Of a stretch of DNA of 64,000 bases, positions 4,116 to 48,715 are shown in pieces. Numbering within the stretch: the first letter of the stretch is position 1; the number at the start of each line of letters is the position of its first letter. The stretch comes from Hyaloraphidium curvatum. Its lineage: Eukaryota; Monoblepharomycota; Hyaloraphidiomycetes; Hyaloraphidiales; Hyaloraphidiaceae. The DNA lies in NCBI GenBank assembly GCA_025558095.1, contig JAIVFI010000010.1, positions 682,001-746,000 of the forward strand, written 5' to 3'. The notes beneath the pieces are model-generated. The model searched no databases, had not been told where the DNA came from, and saw only the letters and a list, made by a program, of their open reading frames with translations. The position numbers and the translations under genes were made by a program.

Positions 4116-5038
4116 TGCCGGATCGGGGAGTGGGATGCGGTGCGGTGGAGGCTGCGGATGCCGGCGCGGGTGGGACGACGCGGGTGGGGGTTTGGAGGTG
4201 CCTGCAGGGATGCGGTCGCGCGTGTATTGCTCTGTCTGCCTATTGGGAGGTTCCGAACGGGAGGGTGGTTCGCGGTGGTCCGTTGGGCGGATCCCGAAGC
4301 CTGCGGGCGGGGTCGGTGGGTGGGTCGAAGGCCGCACGCCGGAGGGATCGGATCGGACGGGCTCGGCACGGCCGGATCGGCCGGTCCCGTGCGGTCCGGG
4401 CGGCATCGTGCGGCCGGCCGGTGCGGAGGCCGCAGCGCAGCCAGTTGGGAAAGGGCGCGCTCGGAAAAACGGAGGCCGGCGGGCGCTGTCGGAATGCACG
4501 GATCGCGGGCCGGAGGGCGCCGGTTGGTTCCGGGGGTGGTTGGCCGTAGCTCCTTTGTGGGCTTCGGGGATGGGGCGCGGGGGTTGGAAAGGGACGGGCG
4601 CCGCGGTGGCGGGGACTAGGTGGCCGCGTCCGATTCTGTTCTGGCGATGCCGCCGAGGGCTGTGGCGAACGGCGGCTCGGAACGGGCGCGGCAGGCGCGG
4701 CGGGCCGGTGCGGAAGCGCTTTCGCCGGTTCGGGAGTCGGCCGGCGAGAAACGGGCGGCGCGGTGGGTCTGCGGTTTGGAGCGGCATCTTGCGGTCGGGT
4801 TTCGAAGGTGGGTAGGGGTTGCCGGAGGGACGGCCGGCGGGCTCCCCGGCGAGGGAAAGGGCCGATCGGGGCCGGAAGCAGCTGGATCGGGGGGCGTCAG
4901 AGCTGCGGGCGCGGTTGCGGTGCGCGGAATGCGAGCGATCGGTCCGGTGGGGACCGGCCACCGTCCTCGGGTGGGGTCAGGGATACCGATGACCTGGATC
5001 TCCAAATTACCCGCAACCACCACGACATCCTCCTCGAC
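4116..5038. other. Intergenic between two C2H2 genes
   Basis: No gene recognised. The sequence is G-rich with many scattered CGGATCGG/GGATCGG words around 4335-4385. It probably holds the terminator of the upstream gene and the promoter of the 5039 gene. The frame of the downstream gene stays open to 4763, so an earlier exon or start cannot be excluded. Confidence 0.4.
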
Positions 5039-6095
5039 ATGACGCCGCTGCAGAGCGCGTACGTGTCGCTTGCCGGCCCGGGCTCGCCGGCGGCGCTGCT
5101 CGGGCCGTTCCCGGTCGGCGGCGGCGGCGCGGGGACGCCAAACTCCCTGCCGCGCAACGCCGCAGGTGCGGCCACCGCCGGACCCCGCTCCGCCCGCGTC
5201 TCGCGCCCCGCCGGCGCCGCCGCGCACCGTGCGGAAGCCGCGGCCGTCGCGATGGCGGCGGCGCAGGGCGGGCCGCCGCCGCCGGGCTTCCCCGCATGGC
5301 AGCCCCCGCCCCGCGCGCCGATGCCGCAGCGCACCCCGTACGGCCCGTACACGAACGTGCCGGGGGCCGCCCGCCGCAGCCCGCACGGCCCCGCCGTCCC
5401 CGCCGGGCAGCCAGCCACGCTCCCGCTCGCCTTCTTCCTGCCGTCCCTCGCCGCGCCGCCGCAGGACCCGTCGGACTGCTACTGGACGTCCCGCGCTTAC
5501 CTGGACCTGGTGGCGCCGCTGCTGGCCCGCGCACACGCAGACGCCCCCCAGCTCCAGCCGAACACGCCCCACCCGCCCTCGGCCTGCCCCTCGGCGGGCA
5601 CCCTGCACCCCTCCCCCGCACGCCGCACCGCATCCTCCTCCGGCTCGGACACCTTTGTCCTCCCCGGCGCAGAGCCCGGCGACGAGGACGGCGAGTTCGA
5701 CCCGGACCCGATGTACCCGGGCCCCGGGGACCCGTCAGCCCAGCCGGCCCTGCCGAGCACCCCCGACCCGGCGTCGGACAGCGACGCGCACACCGAGCCC
5801 GCATCGGACGACGGCAAGGTGCACGCATGCGGGGAATGCGGGCGCGCGTTCAAATCCTTCGGCCACCTGAACCGGTGCGTCCCCCACCCGTCTCCGCGTC
5901 ACCCCCGCCGATCGCTCACCCGTTCCCCTTCCCACCGACAGCCACGCCAAATCCCACCTCCCCGAGGCCCTCCGCCCGCACGCGTGCGAGTACGGCTGCG
6001 GGCGGCGCTTCGCGCGCACGGACAACCTGCGGATGCACCACGCCACGCACGACCGCTCCGGACGGGGGAGGAGGAGGCGGCAGAGACGGGACTGA
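5039..6095 (+). CDS. Two-finger C2H2 zinc-finger protein
   Basis: Exons 5039..5874 and 5942..6095, 329 residues. The N-terminal ~250 residues are Pro/Ala-rich and disordered-looking. Finger 1 is CGECGRAFKSFGHLNR joined by splicing to HAKSH; intron 5875-5941 (GTGCGT...ACAG) falls inside the finger helix and must be removed to supply both histidines. Finger 2 is CEYGCGRRFARTDNLRMHHATH, with a Cys-x3-Cys spacing. A basic Arg-rich tail ends at TGA 6093-6095. Likely a nuclear transcription regulator. It resembles the 2092 gene in layout (long disordered N-terminus, two C-terminal fingers with RSDN/RTDN contact residues), which suggests an old duplication, but the intron position differs. Confidence 0.86.
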
Positions 6096-24258: not shown

Positions 24259-25365
24259 CTAACGCGCAGAGCCACCGGGGAACGGTATGACGTCTCCCTC
24301 CCCTTCAAAGTACCCGCTGTCCTTGGGCGTCTCCAATTCTTCAGAAATGTCAGCGGACTGTGGCTGCGCGAGCCTCAGCTCTCCGTCCTCGAAGCAGACG
24401 ATCCATCCGGAGCTGTCGGCCCGCGACAAGTCGTCACCGGAAGGGGATTCGTGGGTATGCGGTTGGGTATCCAGGGCGAGCCAGGGGTGTGCGAGCGCGG
24501 CGGCTGCGGCGGCCCTGCCGGCCGGGTCGCGCTCGAGGAGGCAAGAGAGGAAGGAGCGCAGCGGTTCGTCCATGCAACTTGGGAATTCAGGATCAGTTGT
24601 TGCGATGGATGTATAGAGCTCCTCGAATGTCCGGGAAGACTGGAAGGGCGTCTCGCCGGTCAGCACCTGCCAGACGAGGCAGCCCAGCGCCCAGATGTCG
24701 ACGCCGGAGTCGTATGCCTCGCCCCGAACAAGCTCCGGGGCGAGGTAGTAGGGCGTCCCAGCAATCGTCGTCATCCCATCGGTCGTGATCTTGAGGACAG
24801 GGGAGTCCTCCGGGCTGCTGCCGGCCACGTCGCCCACGTGTGCCGAGCCAAAGTCGGCCAGGCACAGCGACTCTGCGACGAACGCGGGGTCGCGTACGAG
24901 CACGTTGGCAGGCTTGACATCGCGGTGTACTGTCCCGGCAGCATGCAGCTCCGCCAGCGCCTGCAGAATCGACCGGGCGATTCCCCGGGCCAGCGGCACC
25001 GGCAGCGGCCCGCGCTCCCCGAGGAAACACTGCAGGTCCGGCCCGCGGACGAGCTCCTCGACGATGTAGCCCTTGCCGCCGGCCGAGAACGCCTCGAGCA
25101 TGCGCACGAAGTGGGGGTGGCCGCGGTGGCGGTACAGTACGGCGGCCTCGCGGCGGAAGGCGCGACCGAAAGTGTCGAGGCGGTAGGCCTTGACAGCCAC
25201 GCGGGTCCCGTCGGGGCGCTCTGCCTCTCGAACCGAGGCCTGCGTGCCGGAGCCGATGTGTCGCAGCATCTTGAGCTCGGCGCGGCGGGCGCGGCCGGCG
25301 GGGCCGGAGGGGGGCGGCCAAATGGGGGGTGGCAAGGTGGGCGGCGCGTCGGAGAGTGCCGCCAT
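24259..25365 (-). CDS. Serine/threonine protein kinase
   Basis: Single exon, 368 residues, ATG at 25363-25365. Complete kinase domain, residues ~30-290: glycine loop GSGTQASV, VAVK lysine, catalytic HRDVKPAN, DFG in LADFGSAHVG, activation segment ending GTPYYLAPEL, then DIWALGCLVWQVLTGETPF. The domain closes at AHPWLAL and is followed by a short acidic tail with no known domain. It resembles the AGC/CAMK-like group near PDK1 (threonine-containing activation loop, LGCLVWQ-type DIWALGC), but there is no PH domain, so PDK1 is not claimed. Phosphorylates Ser/Thr of unknown substrates, probably cytosolic. Confidence 0.93.
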   Translation of the reverse strand: MAALSDAPPTLPPPIWPPPSGPAGRARRAELKMLRHIGSGTQASVREAERPDGTRVAVKAYRLDTFGRAFRREAAVLYRHRGHPHFVRMLEAFSAGGKGYIVEELVRGPDLQCFLGERGPLPVPLARGIARSILQALAELHAAGTVHRDVKPANVLVRDPAFVAESLCLADFGSAHVGDVAGSSPEDSPVLKITTDGMTTIAGTPYYLAPELVRGEAYDSGVDIWALGCLVWQVLTGETPFQSSRTFEELYTSIATTDPEFPSCMDEPLRSFLSCLLERDPAGRAAAAAALAHPWLALDTQPHTHESPSGDDLSRADSSGWIVCFEDGELRLAQPQSADISEELETPKDSGYFEGEGDVIPFPGGSAR

Positions 25366-26555
25366 GCGGAGATATCGCTGTGCGAGCGAGACGAGGTTGT
25401 TTCACGGCGGCAGAATGCTCGCCTGCCAGCGAGGGGTGAGGCGAAAAGGTCAGCGCTGCGTTTGGAAACCAGCGCCGCGGTGGCGGCCGCGTCACCGGAA
25501 ACGGGCGTCCTGTGCCCGGATGACGCTGGCAGCTTGACCCACCCGGTGTACGGTCGAGCTTGTTCGCCCGCTGCGGGCAAGATGGGGCGGCCGCACTGGG
25601 AGGTCGGATCTGTGTGTCAATGCTTTGGGTTGCGGCCAGCCGCACTGGGCCGCCAGTCCCTGTGAAACCTAAATGGCGAAGCGGCCGTTCCTGGCCGCGA
25701 GCATTTCATCCACTCGCCCCATTCAATCTCGGACTTTGCATCAATGCTCGCAAATCTGCTGTCCGGGACCTCGAAGGGCATGCAACGGTTGCGAGAATGG
25801 ACCGCCTTCGCGCTGGGAAGGTACAGCCAACCGAGCCTCGGGACCCCCGCTCGTTGGAGCCTGCAAGCGCACGGCAACCCCGCGGTCCCCGCCGCGCGCC
25901 ATGCCTACTCATCCGGCTCTTTAATGGTGCATTGTCGCCGCGCTGGAGCAGCTTCCACTTCGGAGACCCGACCGACCGCCGACTTCCGGGCGGAAACCGC
26001 ACCGCCGGGACCCGCATTGCCGACGACCATGCAGCACACTCGAGCCGTCCGCTGGTCTACGGATCGGGTGTAGGAAGACGGCCCAATGCTTTCCACGCCG
26101 CGGAGAGAGCCGTGGAGGGAAGGGAGCCGGCCGGCTGCACGCACATCGGGCGGGTTCGGGGGCCGTCGCAGAGCTCCGGATCGCTGCGAATATCAAGCGA
26201 GCGAAAACGACAACGGCCAATGAGATACCTCTCATTGGTTCCCGGGAACCGCCGTGATCTCCGGCAATGCCGCCGTCAGGATGGGTGGTTGCCCCTTCCG
26301 ACGAGCAGTCCCGCTGACGTCAGAGACGAAGCCAAACGCAGGTTAATGACCAACCTTCGCCGGGCCTCGGTTCGGGCCGACGGCCAACCTGCCGGACTGC
26401 ACATCAACGCACGCCGCGTGAAATGTGGATTGATCCAGCTAATCTCCTACGATGCCGCTTTTCGAGCGATTCGCATCCGCGCCTCCAGCAAGAAAGGAAC
26501 GTACATTCGAAAAGCAAGCATCCATATGCAAAGCATAAGCCTAGCCTCCGCTGCT
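25366..26555. other. Long intergenic region
   Basis: About 1.2 kb upstream of the Ser/Thr kinase and downstream of an F-box gene, lower in GC than the coding DNA. No coding frame is convincing on either strand. A perfect 14-bp palindrome (ggttcccgggaacc) lies at 26237-26250 and a CRE-like TGACGTCA at 26315-26322. Whether either regulates a neighbour is unknown. Confidence 0.45.
26237..26250. repeat. 14-bp perfect palindrome
   Basis: The sequence ggttcccgggaacc equals its own reverse complement. It lies in a 1.2-kb gene-free stretch about 65 bp from a CRE-like octamer. It could be a dimeric transcription-factor site, or chance in GC-rich DNA. Confidence 0.5.
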
Positions 26556-41905: not shown

Positions 41906-44900
41906 TTACAGCATGAGTTTGGCCGTCTCCTTCTCCAGCTCTACAAAGTCTGGGCGCGACTGCGGGTCCTGCGCCCACGCGCACTCCATCATTGCCCACA
42001 TGGCGTCCTGGACGCCGTCGGGCCTCTCGGGCCTGAGCTGCTCGACCGCGACCTTGTACACGATCTGCAAAAGCTCGATCAGATGCGATCCACGGCGATC
42101 GCCGGGAATCCCAACGCACCGCGGCAATGCTGTTAAGGTCGTCGAAAGGATACCGTCCCTTGCTGACCACCTCGTAGCACAGCATCGCGAAGGCGTACAC
42201 GTCTCCCGCCGGCTTAAGCGGGCCGCCGGCGAGCATCTCGGGGGCAACGAAGCCGGGCGTGCCCTGCATCCCGTTGCCGGTGCGCGCGCTCGACTTGCTG
42301 ACCTCGAGTCGGACGCGTGAGAGGCCGAAGTCGGTGATGACGGCGCGGGAGCCGTCGACGAGCACGTTGAGGCTAGACGGAGAGGCTGGTCAGATCCTGA
42401 AAGGATGGGCCGCGACCGGCACGCACCTCTTGAGATCCCCGTGCAGGATCCCGGACGCATGGAGGTAGGCCATGCCGGCGGTGACGTCGTGCAGGAAGCG
42501 CCGCCCCAGGGCCTGATCCCATCCGAGCGAGCCGAGGTACTTGCGCAGGTTGCCCTCCTCGATGAGGTCCATCACCATCATGGGCGGGGAGATGCAGAAT
42601 GCCATCAGCGGGAGGACTGGGTGCGAGGATGTGCGGTCAGCCAAGTCCGAGAGGGCGTGCGTCCCGCGCCGAGCCCACCGTTCCGCTGCACGAGACCCTC
42701 CCAGTTCGCCACCTCCTTGACGAACGCCGCCATGGTCCGCTCGTCCAGGTCGCCCTTGATCGTTTTGACCGCCACCTTCGTCGACCCGCGGAGCGTGCCC
42801 ACGTACACGACGCCGAACCCGCCCTCGCCCAGGCGCTGCGCCCTGTCGATGGCGATCTCGTCCTCGGTCACAAGGAGCTTGGATGCCGAGGGCGAGATGG
42901 CGATGGCGACCCCGCCGGCGCCGCTACCGCCGGACGGCCGGGCGGCGTTGCCTGGAGTGCCTGGTTTTGATCCCGCGCTGGATGGGGCAGCGCTCTGCAA
43001 ACGCCCCGACGGTGACACGAGGGCGCCGGAGCCGGCGACTGATGCCGTCTTGGAGCCCGCGCTATCCGGCGTAACACCTTTTGCAGGCAGCAAGGCGGGG
43101 GTGGGGAGCTCTGAAGTCGTCTCGGATCCGACTGGGCCGAGCTCCGGCTCGGATAGCTTTGCAGGCTGCGGCCGAGCCGCCCCAACGGCTTGAGCAATGG
43201 GAACAGTGTCGACGACGGCCGTTTGCGCCATCTCGGGGCGAGTCGCCAAGGGCTGCGCCTCGTTATGCTTCTCCTTGTGGTGATCCGAGCTGTCGTCCGC
43301 CAAGGTGGAGACCGAATCATCCGTGGCTGGCGATCCGTTGCGCCGCTCCTTCTCCGCCTCGACGTCCGTCGCCGCTGGCCGGGCCTTCTTCCGCTTCACG
43401 TACACGGCGATGCCGCCGGCTGCCGCGATGACGACGATACCGCCGACGACGCCGCCGACGATGGCGGGAATGTTGCTCGACGAGGACGACGAGGTCGCAG
43501 ATCCGGTGGTAGATCCGGGCGCGTTCCACTGCGCAGCCGCGGCACTCGAGCAGGAGCCGAGCGAGACGCTGCTTCCCGAGGAGGCTTGCAAGCAGCCAGA
43601 CGACGCATCCATGTTGGCGTTGAGGATCATGAGCGAGCCCGACGACGAGTTGAAGAGTGCCCAGTACGGGAAAAGCTGCCCTCCGGCCTGCCGGTGCAGG
43701 AGCCTTGCCGGCGAGGTCGGGCAGCTCCCATCCGAGACGACCAAAGAGACGCCCGACTGCCGCGCTTGGAGACACGACGATCCGCGCTGCAGCCTGATGA
43801 CGGGGGAGCCAGCGACGCCCGCAACGGCGTACTCGCCGGACGATCCATCGGCGAGCACGCAGTCGGAATCGCACGACAATCCCCTCGATCCCACTGTCAG
43901 AGAGATACGCGAGCCGGCAGACAGGGACATCGGGGTTGCGCCAGAGAGGGCAGGCACCGCGGTCGGAGCGGTGGCAAAGACGAGTGTCGCGGTCGTTGTC
44001 GAGGCCGAAGTGGAGGACGATGTGGTCGCTGATGTCGTTTTCGTAGTGGTCACAGACGAGGAAGTCGTCGTGGTGGTAGCTGGGGGCGGGGAAGGAGACG
44101 GGGAAGGAGCGACAGGAATCTGGCAGACGCCGTTCGCGCAGCCCGTCGCCCCCGATCCGCAGGCATTATTGCACCTCCCGCAGTGGTTGATGTCGGAGCT
44201 TGTGGCAACGCAGGCCGAGCCGCACGCCGTGAACCCGCTCAAGGATCCACAGGTCCCAGAGGAGCACTGTATCGCGACCATGTTCTTGTCAGATTCAGTG
44301 CCTCGGAACGGCCAGATCAACTCACGATCTGCCCGCTCGGGCATAAGGATCCGCATTTTCCGCAGTTGCGAATATCCGAGTCGAGGGTGACGCAGTTCAG
44401 CGAGCTCGCGGTGCCGCAGTTGGTCTGACCGGTGCCGCACGTGGGCCGGAACTGGCAGGTTCCCGAGGAGCAGCCCATCGAGTCCGCGGGGCACGAAGTC
44501 CCGCATTGGCCGCAATGATTCCTGTCCGAGTCGACGGCAACGCAGAATCCGTTGCAGTTCGTGAGGCCAGTGGGGCACAAGCAGCGTCGGGAAGAGCATG
44601 ACTGTCCGTCGGGGCAGGAAGTGCCGCAAGCGCCGCAGTTGCGCGAGTCTGAATCGAGGGAGACGCAGCTCCCGCCGCATGAGGTGAGACCGGAAGCGCA
44701 GGCGCAGGCACCGTTGGAGCACTGGGGAAGGGACGATCCGGTTAGATTCCAAAATTGCACGTACGAGGCAGGACCCACAACTTGGCCAGAAGGGCAGGTC
44801 ACGCCGCGGCACGGGTCGACGGGAACGCAGGCCCTTCCGTTACCGGACGGCGAAGTGTAGCCGGGATTGCAGGAGCAGGTCCCCCCCGAGCACGACGAGA

Positions 44901-46138
44901 AGTCGCCGCAATTTATGCCAGCGCACGGGTCTATGGCGCGGCAGTTCTTTCCGTCGCCGGTCGAGGAACTGTAGCCGGGATTGCAGGTGCAGGTTCCGCC
45001 CGAGCACGAAGAGAAGTCGCCGCAGTTCACGCCCGCGCACCGATCGATCAGCTGACAGTTTCGCCCGTCTCCAGAAGGGGAAGAGTAGCCAGAATTACAG
45101 GAGCAGCGACCAGCCGAGCAAGACGAGAAGGGTCCGCAGTTGATGCCGGCGCAGGGATCGATCAGCTGGCAATTCCGCCCATCGCCGGACGGTGAGGAGT
45201 AGCCCGAGTTGCAGGAGCACCGGCCCCCCGAGCACGACGAAAATGATCCACAATTGATGCCGGCACACGGATCAGTGGAGCGGCAGACGCCGTTGGTGCA
45301 CTATTGAGCAATTGGTCATTTAGTAGGTCGTGTGATGATGGGCTTAATCAAGATTACCATCGTCGAGAAAGGACAGGCGTTTCCGCAGGAGCCGCACTGT
45401 GTTGTTGTCAGCATATGGGGCGCTTGCAGTCGAAAACCGGCCTTACGTTTCGGTTATCGGTGTTGCGATTGACGCAGTTATGTTGACCGACTTCGGTGGA
45501 AGAGCCGCAATTGTACAGAAGCGTGTTTTCACAAGGCCGCTGGTCCAGAGCACCCCACATAAAGTGAATAACGAAATCACACAGTCGCAATCTGTAACTT
45601 ACGCAGAAGGCGCATGGATTCTGGCGGCCGTAAGCCAATATTTCCCCAGGATCGCAAGTTGGAATGACACAGCGGGACTGACACTCCCCTGTTAGGTGTG
45701 CTGGTCAGCGACGCAGCGAGCGTAAGCCAAGAAAATCCCTGCCTCCAGAGCACCATATCTGTTGATTGGGGTAAGGGACCTGCAGGCATTCGTTGGCGCA
45801 GGATCCACAGTGGTTTGCCGAAGTCTGTAGATTGACGCAGCTCCCTCCGCAGCTCGTCTGCCCGGAAGGGCAACGCGTCTGCCGGTCCCACAATCGAGTA
45901 GAAGCATTGAGAGAGAATCCAGTTCCAAGAAACACCAGCGCCGGAGCGGCGTCAGTCACGGTGCAGCACACGGAGAGCCAAAGCAGTGCCAGCGCTAGTG
46001 CAGCATAATAGAGGGTGAACGGGAGCCGGGCGGATATGCGGTGGTGCTTTCGGCTGGCGTGTCGGCCTGCCGCTTCCGCGTTTCATTAGCTCGCCGGGCA
46101 GCGAAAACGATGGCCTCACCCATGTCAGTGATTTCCAT
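41906..46138 (-). CDS. Receptor-like kinase with EGF-like and Cys-rich ectodomain
   Basis: Eleven exons (minus): 46120..46138, 45743..46066, 45603..45688, 45447..45539, 45358..45396, 44779..45300, 44326..44721, 42679..44266, 42427..42616, 42120..42372, 41906..42064; 1222 residues. Signal/anchor FTLYYAALALALLWLSVCC; Cys repeats of the type CGGSCVNLQTSANHCGSCANEC; four EGF-like units (DPCAGINCGDFSSCSGGTC type) in exon 6; three more Cys repeats; Thr/Ser-rich stalk; transmembrane helix PAIVGGVVGGIVVIAAAGG plus KRKK stop-transfer; ~180-residue disordered juxtamembrane; kinase GEGGFGVVY, VAVK, HGDLKSLN, DFGLSR, GTPGFVAPE. The HRD Arg is Gly. TKL-like. Intron 45689-45742 is GC-AG; 44722-44778 is stop-free and in frame. 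An in-frame start farther up (46519) is possible. Confidence 0.85.
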
Positions 46139-46639: not shown

Positions 46640-48181
46640 CTACAAGTATATCCTGTGGAGGCTCTGCACCGTCTTCCTGCAAAGCGGGCAAGCCTGCCTC
46701 GTCCTGACCGCCCTCGCCTCCATGCACGCGAGGCACAGGATCACGTGGCCGCACGGCAGCGCGACGACGGAGGGGGCCTCGCCCAGACAGATCACGCACT
46801 GCTTCTCGCCCTCGTCGGGCTCGTCGTGGGTGGGGCCGTGTGGTGGCGTCGGTTGGCGAGAGGGAGGGTGAGACGGGGTGCGCCGTGGCGGGGTAGGCGG
46901 GGGAGCGTTGGAGGGGCCGGCTTCGGCGGCCCGCGAGGATTCCATCTGGTCCAGCACCGTCTCGATCGAGATCTCCGGCTGCGACGGGTCCAGCGACATC
47001 GCCCTGATCGTCTCGGCGATGCGGTCCAGGTCGGTGAGCTCCATCGCGATGGCCTGCTCGATGATCATGGCGTGCTCCTCGAGGAGCTCGCCGTCGGCCA
47101 TAGAGGGTTCCGAGGCCGGTCTCGGCGGCGTTGGGGGCCGCGGCGGGTCGGCAAAGGAGACCTGAAAAGACGACTCCTCGTCGACGGATTCCCACTCGTC
47201 CTCCTCGTCCTCATCGTCCTGTGGCGTTGGCGACGGAGCCGATCCTGCTTCCGCTGTTCCATAGCTCTCGTCGCCGTCGTCCAGGACCCCGGTTTCCCAC
47301 AGGTCGCGCCCGGGCAGCTCCCCGAAATCCAGGCCGCCCCTTCGGCAAATCAACCTCTGCATTCGCACACAGGTTTTGAGCTCAGGATCGTCGGGCGCGT
47401 CCCAGAAGGGAAGCAGCGCGTCCGTCGTCCAGCTTCTGGTCTTCATGGAAAGTATCTTCTCCCCAGCGGTCTCGCGCCCGCCACCGTCCCTCCGCGCCGA
47501 AACATCCGCCCCCGCGCGCAGGAGAAGCAGCGCGGAATGCGGGCGCCGGTGGTGCACCGCGACGAGCAGCGGGGTCCGCCCTTCGTTGTCCCTCTCTGCG
47601 AGCTGCGCGCGGTTGGCCTCCTTGCCCTCCGACAGCAGGATCCGCACCAAAGTGCGCATTGCTGGTGGGTCGGCGAACCTGGGCCGCGGCAGCACCCCGT
47701 TGGGCGGGCTGCCGCCCGGGAACGGCCGCTGGAACTTTTCGACATCGGCCTCCGCAGGGAACGCGTCCAGCAGCAGGCTCAGCGGTGTCCGGCCCCGCGC
47801 GTCGCGCGCCCGCAGCAGCTCCGGGTACCGCTCGACGAGCAGGAGGGCGCAGCCGGCCGCGTTCCTGTGGGCCGCCCGATGCAGTAGCGTCCACTGCTCG
47901 CCGTTGGCCGCGGCCCGCACGTCGCCGCGCGACTCGGTGGACACGATCAGGCGGAGGATCGATGGTCGATCATAAATCACCGCGATGTCGGCCGCAGAGT
48001 GGCCCTGGAGCGGCTCATCGAAGAGGAGGCGCCGTCGGAGGTCCGCGGTGGTCCACCCCGCCGTCTCGGTGCCGCCAGAGTCCAGCGCCGATTGCAGCAC
48101 GTCTGGGTGCAATAATGACGAGAGCTCCTCTGCGTTGCCGGTGGCGCAGGCCTCCCATATCTGGGGCGCGAGGAACTTCAT
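46640..48181 (-). CDS. Ankyrin-repeat RING-finger E3 ubiquitin ligase
   Basis: Single exon, 513 residues from ATG 48179-48181 (the frame opens at a GTG 24 bases earlier, less likely as start). Ankyrin units in residues ~60-260: WTLLHRAAHRNAAGCALLL, GRTPLSLLLDAFPA, GRTPLLVAVHHRRPHSALLL. Acidic linker (QDDEDEEDEWES) and Pro-rich segment, then a C-terminal C3HC4 RING, CVICLGEAPSVVALPCGHVI, LCLACMEA, CPLCRK, ending RIYL. RING proteins of this layout transfer ubiquitin from an E2 to substrates bound by the ankyrin repeats. All eight zinc ligands are present. Cytosolic; substrate unknown. Confidence 0.9.
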   Translation of the reverse strand: MKFLAPQIWEACATGNAEELSSLLHPDVLQSALDSGGTETAGWTTADLRRRLLFDEPLQGHSAADIAVIYDRPSILRLIVSTESRGDVRAAANGEQWTLLHRAAHRNAAGCALLLVERYPELLRARDARGRTPLSLLLDAFPAEADVEKFQRPFPGGSPPNGVLPRPRFADPPAMRTLVRILLSEGKEANRAQLAERDNEGRTPLLVAVHHRRPHSALLLLRAGADVSARRDGGGRETAGEKILSMKTRSWTTDALLPFWDAPDDPELKTCVRMQRLICRRGGLDFGELPGRDLWETGVLDDGDESYGTAEAGSAPSPTPQDDEDEEDEWESVDEESSFQVSFADPPRPPTPPRPASEPSMADGELLEEHAMIIEQAIAMELTDLDRIAETIRAMSLDPSQPEISIETVLDQMESSRAAEAGPSNAPPPTPPRRTPSHPPSRQPTPPHGPTHDEPDEGEKQCVICLGEAPSVVALPCGHVILCLACMEARAVRTRQACPLCRKTVQSLHRIYL

Positions 48182-48715
48182 GGACGCGTTTGTTGTCTCG
48201 TCCACTGAGTGACGCGCTCGTGGACGGCAGGATGGGCGGATGCGAGCTCATTTGGCCAGGCATACATAACCATTAGCATGCTTTTAACATCGACGCTTGC
48301 CAAAGAGACCATTTCCGGGGGATTGGCGCGGAGACGGCCATCCATACCAGGTCAAGGCGCGGGGAGGCTTCCGCTCAAAGCATCCCGATCCGGGCTCGAT
48401 GGTGAACAAAGCGGTAGGTGACTCAAGCAACTTCATCATGTTCTTCAAGTTTCTCTTGATGGAAATGGCCGATCTATGTTCTTTGGGCGTAAGGCCTGAC
48501 GACGCCACGCCGCCACGGGAGGTGGCAAAAGTGCACTACCGTCTCCCGTCCGACTCGCTCCCGACACCGCTTTCTCCACCCCTCTAGCAGTCGCAGCGGC
48601 CTCCCCTTGCGCTCTGCGTAGGGCCAGTCTCCTCGTTCTTCCTCCCCTGCACTCCGGCGCTCGGCCAAGCCGTCAAACTTGTGCCCCAACGGAACCTGCA
48701 CTCCCGAAGTTTGAA
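48182..48715. other. Divergent intergenic region
   Basis: 534 bp between the ankyrin-RING start (minus) and the amidohydrolase start (plus). The 200 bp before 48716 are pyrimidine-rich, as at VMA16. No gene recognised. Confidence 0.4.

Follow-up and report, generated by a model that had tools for sequence, protein, structure and literature searches.

Do fungi possess receptor-like kinases? The question is raised by a gene in a 64,000-nucleotide stretch of the Hyaloraphidium curvatum genome (contig JAIVFI010000010.1, positions 682,001 to 746,000; assembly GCA_025558095.1), which we call the window. The passages of a 2019 survey that bear on the matter report no receptor-kinase architectures in fungi (PMC6733946), and the name Hyaloraphidium does not occur in the text of that paper. 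Leucine-rich repeat (LRR) receptor kinases are described as absent from 49 fungi in the relevant part of a second paper (PMC2939053), and a paper on gut-fungus membrane proteins mentions receptor tyrosine kinases generally where its own catalytic class is discussed, in passages that name none in those fungi (PMC5168858). Among the matches listed from the open-licence literature, no report of fungal receptor-like kinases was recognisable. H. curvatum, an aquatic organism reclassified from the algae to Monoblepharomycota in an account of which we cite a part (PMC8371127), is placed by NCBI taxonomy in Fungi, Monoblepharomycota, and its assembly contains chitin synthase domains, in agreement with the original prediction that the gene belongs to an early-diverging fungus; the contig is not from a non-fungal lineage. 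We find that the product of the gene is very probably a receptor-like Ser/Thr kinase that crosses the membrane once and belongs to the fungal TKL group, and that the gene is part of a family pairing one kinase type with exchangeable input modules.

Gene model and domain layout

Rebuilt from the raw sequence, the gene lies on the minus strand at 46138-41906 and, as predicted, eleven exons join in one frame: 46138-46120, 46066-45743, 45688-45603, 45539-45447, 45396-45358, 45300-44779, 44721-44326, 44266-42679, 42616-42427, 42372-42120 and 42064-41906, the last including the stop. The coding sequence of 3669 nt, stop included, specifies 1222 amino acids. The ten introns measure 50-63 nt each; nine are GT-AG and one is GC-AG (45742-45689). 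When plain GT-AG introns were tried in the second exon, the first Cys repeat was broken or its end was lost. The GC-AG intron, which follows residue 114, was accepted because it restores that repeat and because L001, a paralogue on contig C16, has a GT-AG intron in the same place. A spliced alignment of the window protein to L001 spans residues 20 to 1221, and in it nine of the ten introns have an L001 counterpart that agrees in both residue and phase (those after 114, 143, 174, 187, 361, 493, 1022, 1085 and 1170). One additional 120-nt intron in this alignment, after residue 70, was taken as an artefact. The introns after 1022 and 1170 are present in all six kinase-bearing paralogues. Together, the L001 alignment and the common introns indicate that the gene model is not due to chance. 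No public model identical to the window protein was found among the listed proteins of 672-2138 amino acids, and the public annotation at this locus may differ from the 11-exon model.

Eukaryotic gene models built without RNA data can merge neighbours, and the model could in principle be a wrong fusion of two genes, one for a secreted Cys-rich protein and the other for a soluble TKL kinase. Exon 8 (44266-42679), however, has 529 codons within a 744-codon open frame and runs unbroken through the last Cys repeats, the stalk, a beta-trefoil, the transmembrane helix, the juxtamembrane region and the kinase N-lobe, which excludes a two-gene model unless the frame itself is split. Six further H. curvatum loci show the same domain order, as do two public models, P0001 and P0002. 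We therefore regard such a fusion as barely credible: as far as the DNA tells, ectodomain and kinase are not separate genes.

The protein begins with a hydrophobic, signal-peptide-like segment (residues 25-43, 45957..46013; this and all following features of the gene are on the minus strand), for which the only measure is a hydropathy of 2.02. Six STIG1-like Cys repeats were counted by eye, two ahead of the EGF-like units and four behind them. Repeat 1 (residues 72-117, 45681..45872), which spans the GC-AG intron, and repeat 2 (residues 153-193, 45283..45512) were delimited by eye and by alignment. They are followed by four EGF-like units with six Cys each (residues 197-234, 235-272, 273-310 and 311-348; 44818..45273), where Pfam cEGF matches four stretches at E 4.8e-8. 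Repeats 3-6 (residues 367-541, 44123..44706) are recognised by Pfam Stig1 (E 1.1e-9, four stretches in the whole protein) and by NCBIfam NF041328. A Ser/Thr/Pro-rich stalk, read from the sequence (residues 544-585, 43991..44116), leads to a membrane-proximal domain with a beta-trefoil fold (residues 586-745, 43511..43990); there was no Pfam lectin match in the window protein. The predicted transmembrane helix, PAIVGGVVGGIVVIAAAGGIAVYV (residues 760-783, 43397..43468), contains GxxxG pairs and is followed by a basic KRKK; its hydropathy peaks at 2.31 over residues 762-780. A low-complexity juxtamembrane region (residues 784-955, 42881..43396) connects it to the TKL kinase domain (residues 956-1222, 41909..42880; Pfam PF07714), which has three introns within it and carries the motifs GEGGFG, VAVK, HGDLKSLN, DFG and APE. 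The Pfam PK_Tyr_Ser-Thr match covers residues 969-1215 (E 2.4e-46; 158.6 bits against a curated cut-off of 23.1). Ectodomain, one transmembrane helix and a cytoplasmic kinase thus lie in a single polypeptide with a hydropathy-predicted receptor-like topology. The layout first proposed for the gene (signal-like N-terminus, Cys repeats, four EGF-like units, stalk, transmembrane helix and kinase) is retained, but it had missed the beta-trefoil between stalk and membrane.

Competence and ancestry of the kinase

The HGDLKSLN loop had been singled out because it stands in place of HRD. The loop is indeed present but is no peculiarity of this protein. In a motif survey of 61 kinases, 36 of the 40 other fungal matches listed have HGD, the usual form in fungal TKL matches; the four that depart from the pattern include P0203 (HHD) and P0045 (HGE). 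HGD was also seen outside fungi, in two green-algal rows, one diatom row and one oomycete row. Since HGD is so prevalent among the fungal matches, we rejected the idea that it marks a dead kinase. The loop conforms to the DLKxxN pattern of Ser/Thr-type kinases.

We compared the window gene with L001 to determine how its domains have been constrained. The ratio of nonsynonymous to synonymous change (dN/dS) is about 0.12 for the kinase, 0.11 for the EGF units, 0.16 for Cys repeats 3-6, 0.21 for the trefoil, 0.38 for the stalk and 0.43 for the transmembrane and juxtamembrane part; in the first two Cys repeats, synonymous changes are saturated. Another possibility is that the gene encodes a surface protein that acts as a decoy or scaffold, its kinase domain having lost the ability to signal. 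The missing Arg of HRD would fit such a protein, as would a relative on contig C47 (L004, C47:1-9900, about 4190-5621) that has an EGF/STIG1 ectodomain, trefoil and transmembrane segment with no aligned kinase, and that is either a receptor-like protein or a truncated copy. The window kinase, however, retains Lys994, Asp1083, Asn1088, DFG and APE, and its dN against the C16 paralogue is the lowest among the domains compared. We consider loss of signalling unlikely. The original proposal of a receptor-like TKL kinase is supported on four counts: the domains, the topology predicted for the protein, the conservation of its introns and the purifying selection.

To place the kinase, a tree was built from 61 kinase domains, with the kinases of L017-L025, L034 and L040 left out. 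As it has 12 long end branches and low support on 28 of its 58 inner branches, only strong nodes were used. Nineteen Hyaloraphidium and environmental kinases, 13 receptor and 6 soluble, form one clade (100/100). Within it, the six soluble kinases, among them those with ankyrin or Sel1 repeats, form their own subclade (96/93). Around the whole clade is a larger set (99/93), which takes in 17 of the 18 other fungal TKLs and also a single oomycete row on a long branch; one Entomortierella row falls outside. Also outside are plant receptor-like kinases (RLKs), animal tyrosine kinases and the receptor kinases of Pelomyxa and Entamoeba. The four plant RLKs form a clade of their own (100/100) and the animal kinases another (100/99), neither of which contains the window kinase; with its placement among fungal TKLs and its HGDLKSLN loop, it is neither an RLK/Pelle kinase nor an animal receptor tyrosine kinase. 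The phylogeny proposed as a check on the gene thus groups it with fungal TKLs, apart from plant, animal and amoebal receptor kinases.

A receptor kinase of this layout might instead have been gained horizontally from plants, oomycetes, amoebae or animals, whose receptor kinases have a similar layout. The ectodomain repeats could also be foreign, since the Cys-rich repeats match a bacterial family: residues 1-791 hit the NCBIfam model for MXAN_6577-like cysteine-rich proteins at E 4.3e-41 in three stretches, the best being 353-451, and the STIG1-like repeats are common to both. Against transfer, the tree joins the kinase to soluble kinases of H. curvatum and to the other fungal TKLs, and separates it from the receptor kinases of plants, animals, Pelomyxa and Entamoeba. 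We find transfer of the receptor kinase very improbable.

Members of the plant WAK family are single-pass proteins with EGF units outside and a kinase inside. Neither the WAK nor the CRINKLY4 family is known to have a trefoil or STIG1-like repeats. The H. curvatum family resembles both in being single-pass, with EGF or RCC1 outside and the kinase inside, but differs in that the four plant receptor kinases in the tree, among which no CR4 or WAK was included, form a separate clade. CRINKLY4 (CR4) itself is described, in the part of the source that concerns it, as single-pass with RCC1_2 repeats outside and a kinase inside (PMC12487043). Animal receptor tyrosine kinases likewise combine a modular ectodomain, a single transmembrane segment and a kinase inside; their loop, however, is HRDLAARN, whereas the window kinase has HGDLKSLN together with GTPGFVAPE. 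The amoebal receptor kinases of Pelomyxa (P0133) and Entamoeba (P0042) share a transmembrane segment ahead of a TKL-like kinase, but they have an HRD loop and sit outside the fungal set. Conversely, the soluble H. curvatum TKLs P0121, P0123, P0125 and P0126 (ankyrin) and P0128 (Sel1) belong to the same kinase clade and have HGD, but lack a transmembrane segment before the kinase. Among PDB sequences, the window kinase is best matched by an EGFR chain that contains the kinase twice (5.4e-29); of the single-copy chains ABL1 comes first (2.4e-28), followed closely by CTR1. FslK are fungal kinases described, in the passages concerned, as sister to tyrosine kinases (PMC3937382).

A family in Hyaloraphidium and its relatives

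The gene had been treated as a single one. The receptor kinase itself stands, but a search of the 31.9 Mb assembly (55 contigs) shows it to be one member of a family. The genome has at least 160 merged kinase places, several with ankyrin or Sel1 repeats and some that do not look like TKLs by eye (L036, L042 and L043). In addition to the paralogues of the window gene, we read 12 loci chosen among those nearest to the window kinase and 16 drawn randomly from the other 141. About 2.7-2.9 kb ahead of each kinase was read. To be counted, a transmembrane segment had to lie in the same open frame as the kinase; hydrophobic segments found upstream in a different frame (L026, L035 and L043) were left out.

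At least seventeen H. curvatum kinases have a transmembrane segment ahead of the kinase: seven with Cys-rich ectodomains, six with RCC1 and four with undefined ectodomains (L017, L023, L024 and L025). The seven Cys-rich ones comprise the window gene and loci on C16, C6, C38, C3, C24 and C8, where Cys-rich ectodomain, trefoil, transmembrane segment and kinase follow in the same order; EGF-like matches occur in five, with none at C3 and C8. The automatic spliced alignments of L002-L007 cannot be trusted throughout their N-terminal half, where some stretches have introns of hundreds of bases and meaningless exons, and from these loci the trefoil, transmembrane and kinase parts were used. Seven of the 12 close loci (L017, L019 and L021-L025) have a transmembrane segment before the kinase, and Pfam finds RCC1 repeats in three of them (L019, L021 and L022). 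The other five have no transmembrane segment in the kinase frame; two carry ankyrin and one Sel1 repeats by Pfam, while by eye one of the last two is a coiled coil and the other is unclear. In the random sample, two of the 16 loci are receptor-like (L034 and L040), both with RCC1 by Pfam, and the annotated H. curvatum protein P0122 also has RCC1, a transmembrane segment and a kinase. L019, L021, L022, L034, L040 and P0122 thus present a CRINKLY4-like layout in a fungus.

Does the topology occur elsewhere in fungi? A set of named fungi was drawn from the best 120 of 194 and the best 120 of 735 matches, with length limits applied. By a hydropathy test, a transmembrane segment precedes the kinase in none of the 40 other named fungal matches listed: in 38 no hydrophobic segment passes the threshold, and in two there is one behind the kinase. 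The same test flags three of eight annotated H. curvatum proteins and five of six environmental ones. Nine of ten receptor-type controls were flagged (P0209 has the segment but not the catalytic pattern), and two soluble controls were negative. The predicted rarity in fungi is therefore upheld, in line with two papers in which fungi are described as lacking such receptors; it is possible that rarer cases of transmembrane kinases exist in other fungi.

The environmental proteins with receptor-kinase topology are P0003, P0124, P0130, P0004 and P0134, the last two with RCC1 repeats according to precomputed Pfam. A profile of nine trefoils, run against 238 fetched proteins, found the domain in P0001, P0002 and P0003 (3.8e-31); P0130 gave a partial match (2.8e-18). 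P0124 was not among the matches at E 1; the trefoil and STIG1-like repeats there were seen by eye only. Identity between each environmental kinase and its closest counterpart among the 13 H. curvatum kinases compared is 51-67%, and nowhere in these proteins does a stretch of more than 40 amino acids exceed 85% identity to the loci fetched. It is likely, judging from these identities, that they come from other species.

Several further observations were made along the way. Upstream of the receptor kinase and on the same strand, the neighbouring gene (window 46640-48244, minus) encodes an ankyrin-repeat and RING-finger protein. The window holds a second kinase (24262-25401, minus; Pkinase E 2.3e-49); its frame showed no transmembrane segment, and it is apparently a soluble Ser/Thr kinase of the ordinary kind. 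Kinase pairs with the same score on the small contigs C48, C51 and C52 may be duplicate assembly. The open frame at L026:1-1542 starts like a signal sequence, contains several hydrophobic segments and by eye resembles a ligand-gated ion channel, with no Pfam family. A von Willebrand A-like domain of L027, also seen by eye, was dismissed as it had no Pfam support.

Origin and possible function

Four further loci encode a trefoil, or part of one, a transmembrane segment and an SH3-like domain: L028 (C39:415000-420500), L029 (C20:88500-93500), L030 (C18:12300-16500) and L031 (C31:378500-383300). No kinase was seen at these loci in the 4.2-5.5 kb read. L029 has, by eye, an LRR-like N-terminal part for which Pfam gave nothing. 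An SH3-like domain also lies between the transmembrane segment and the kinase in P0002, P0003 and P0130; SH3 scores exceed the curated cut-off only in P0130 and, barely, in L031. These receptor kinases carry an SH3-like domain between membrane and kinase, and the H. curvatum genome also has trefoil-transmembrane-SH3 proteins that lack a kinase. It is therefore probable that the receptor kinases originated within the fungal lineage itself, when a TKL kinase became joined to a surface protein of this type; on the simplest reading, the branch leading to the window gene lost the SH3. Outside H. curvatum, nothing convincing was found for the trefoil-transmembrane-SH3 part: four matches reached E 0.001 or better among 7995 candidates, covering 3-6% of the query where given, two with a transmembrane annotation only, and were not counted.

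Our best reading is that of an independently evolved family of fungal receptor-like kinases. We also think it reasonably probable that Hyaloraphidium and its environmental relatives have a receptor-kinase repertoire of their own, analogous to plant RLKs and animal receptor tyrosine kinases, in which one TKL type was joined to trefoil-transmembrane-SH3 surface proteins and then spread over exchangeable Cys-rich/EGF, RCC1 and other ectodomains, some with bacterial-type repeats. How might such a receptor work? The Cys-rich/EGF array and the membrane-proximal trefoil would bind an extracellular ligand, perhaps a glycan or glycoprotein, and the Ser/Thr stalk would span the cell wall. The Gly-rich, GxxxG-containing helix may aid dimerisation, and the cytoplasmic non-RD (HGD) kinase would then phosphorylate itself and downstream proteins on Ser/Thr. 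Across the family, input would come from Cys-rich modules (with or without EGF), RCC1 or undefined modules outside the cell, and from ankyrin or Sel1 repeats inside. A glycan or cell-surface molecule is our best guess at the ligand, though a tentative one. A sensor of surfaces, hosts or cell wall, the role first suggested for the gene, is plausible.

Several points weigh against this picture. At the level of the gene, exon 1 with its start codon (46120..46138) is unsupported and the weakest part of the model, as L001 lacks an intron at this place and its reading frame continues upstream, with ATGs in it. The transmembrane and signal assignments were made by hydropathy alone. Foldseek with the trefoil returned no match at E 0.001 or better, and a trefoil fold alone is no demonstration of sugar binding. 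Gly-rich transmembrane motifs are common in other fungal stalked surface proteins, so the suggestion of dimerisation is a weak one. At the level of the family, 14 of the 16 randomly sampled kinase loci are not receptor-like, and the receptor kinase L040 of that sample, which is outside the tree set, reads HRD rather than HGD. Receptor and soluble forms require two changes in the tree, so the topology may have had one origin or more. In P0002 and P0003 the SH3 matches fall short of the curated cut-offs, and the sequence of events, SH3 protein first and kinase later, is an assumed order, chosen as the simplest reading.

Receptor-like kinases are well known as a kind elsewhere, while the fungal family described here, with its trefoil and its kinase clade, looks undescribed. 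Fungi are a large eukaryotic group said to lack receptor kinases, and a family in an early-diverging fungus makes that question testable. H. curvatum offers a case of convergent receptor-kinase origin, with possible intermediates in one genome: trefoil-transmembrane proteins that have SH3 and no kinase, both SH3 and a kinase, or a kinase and no SH3.

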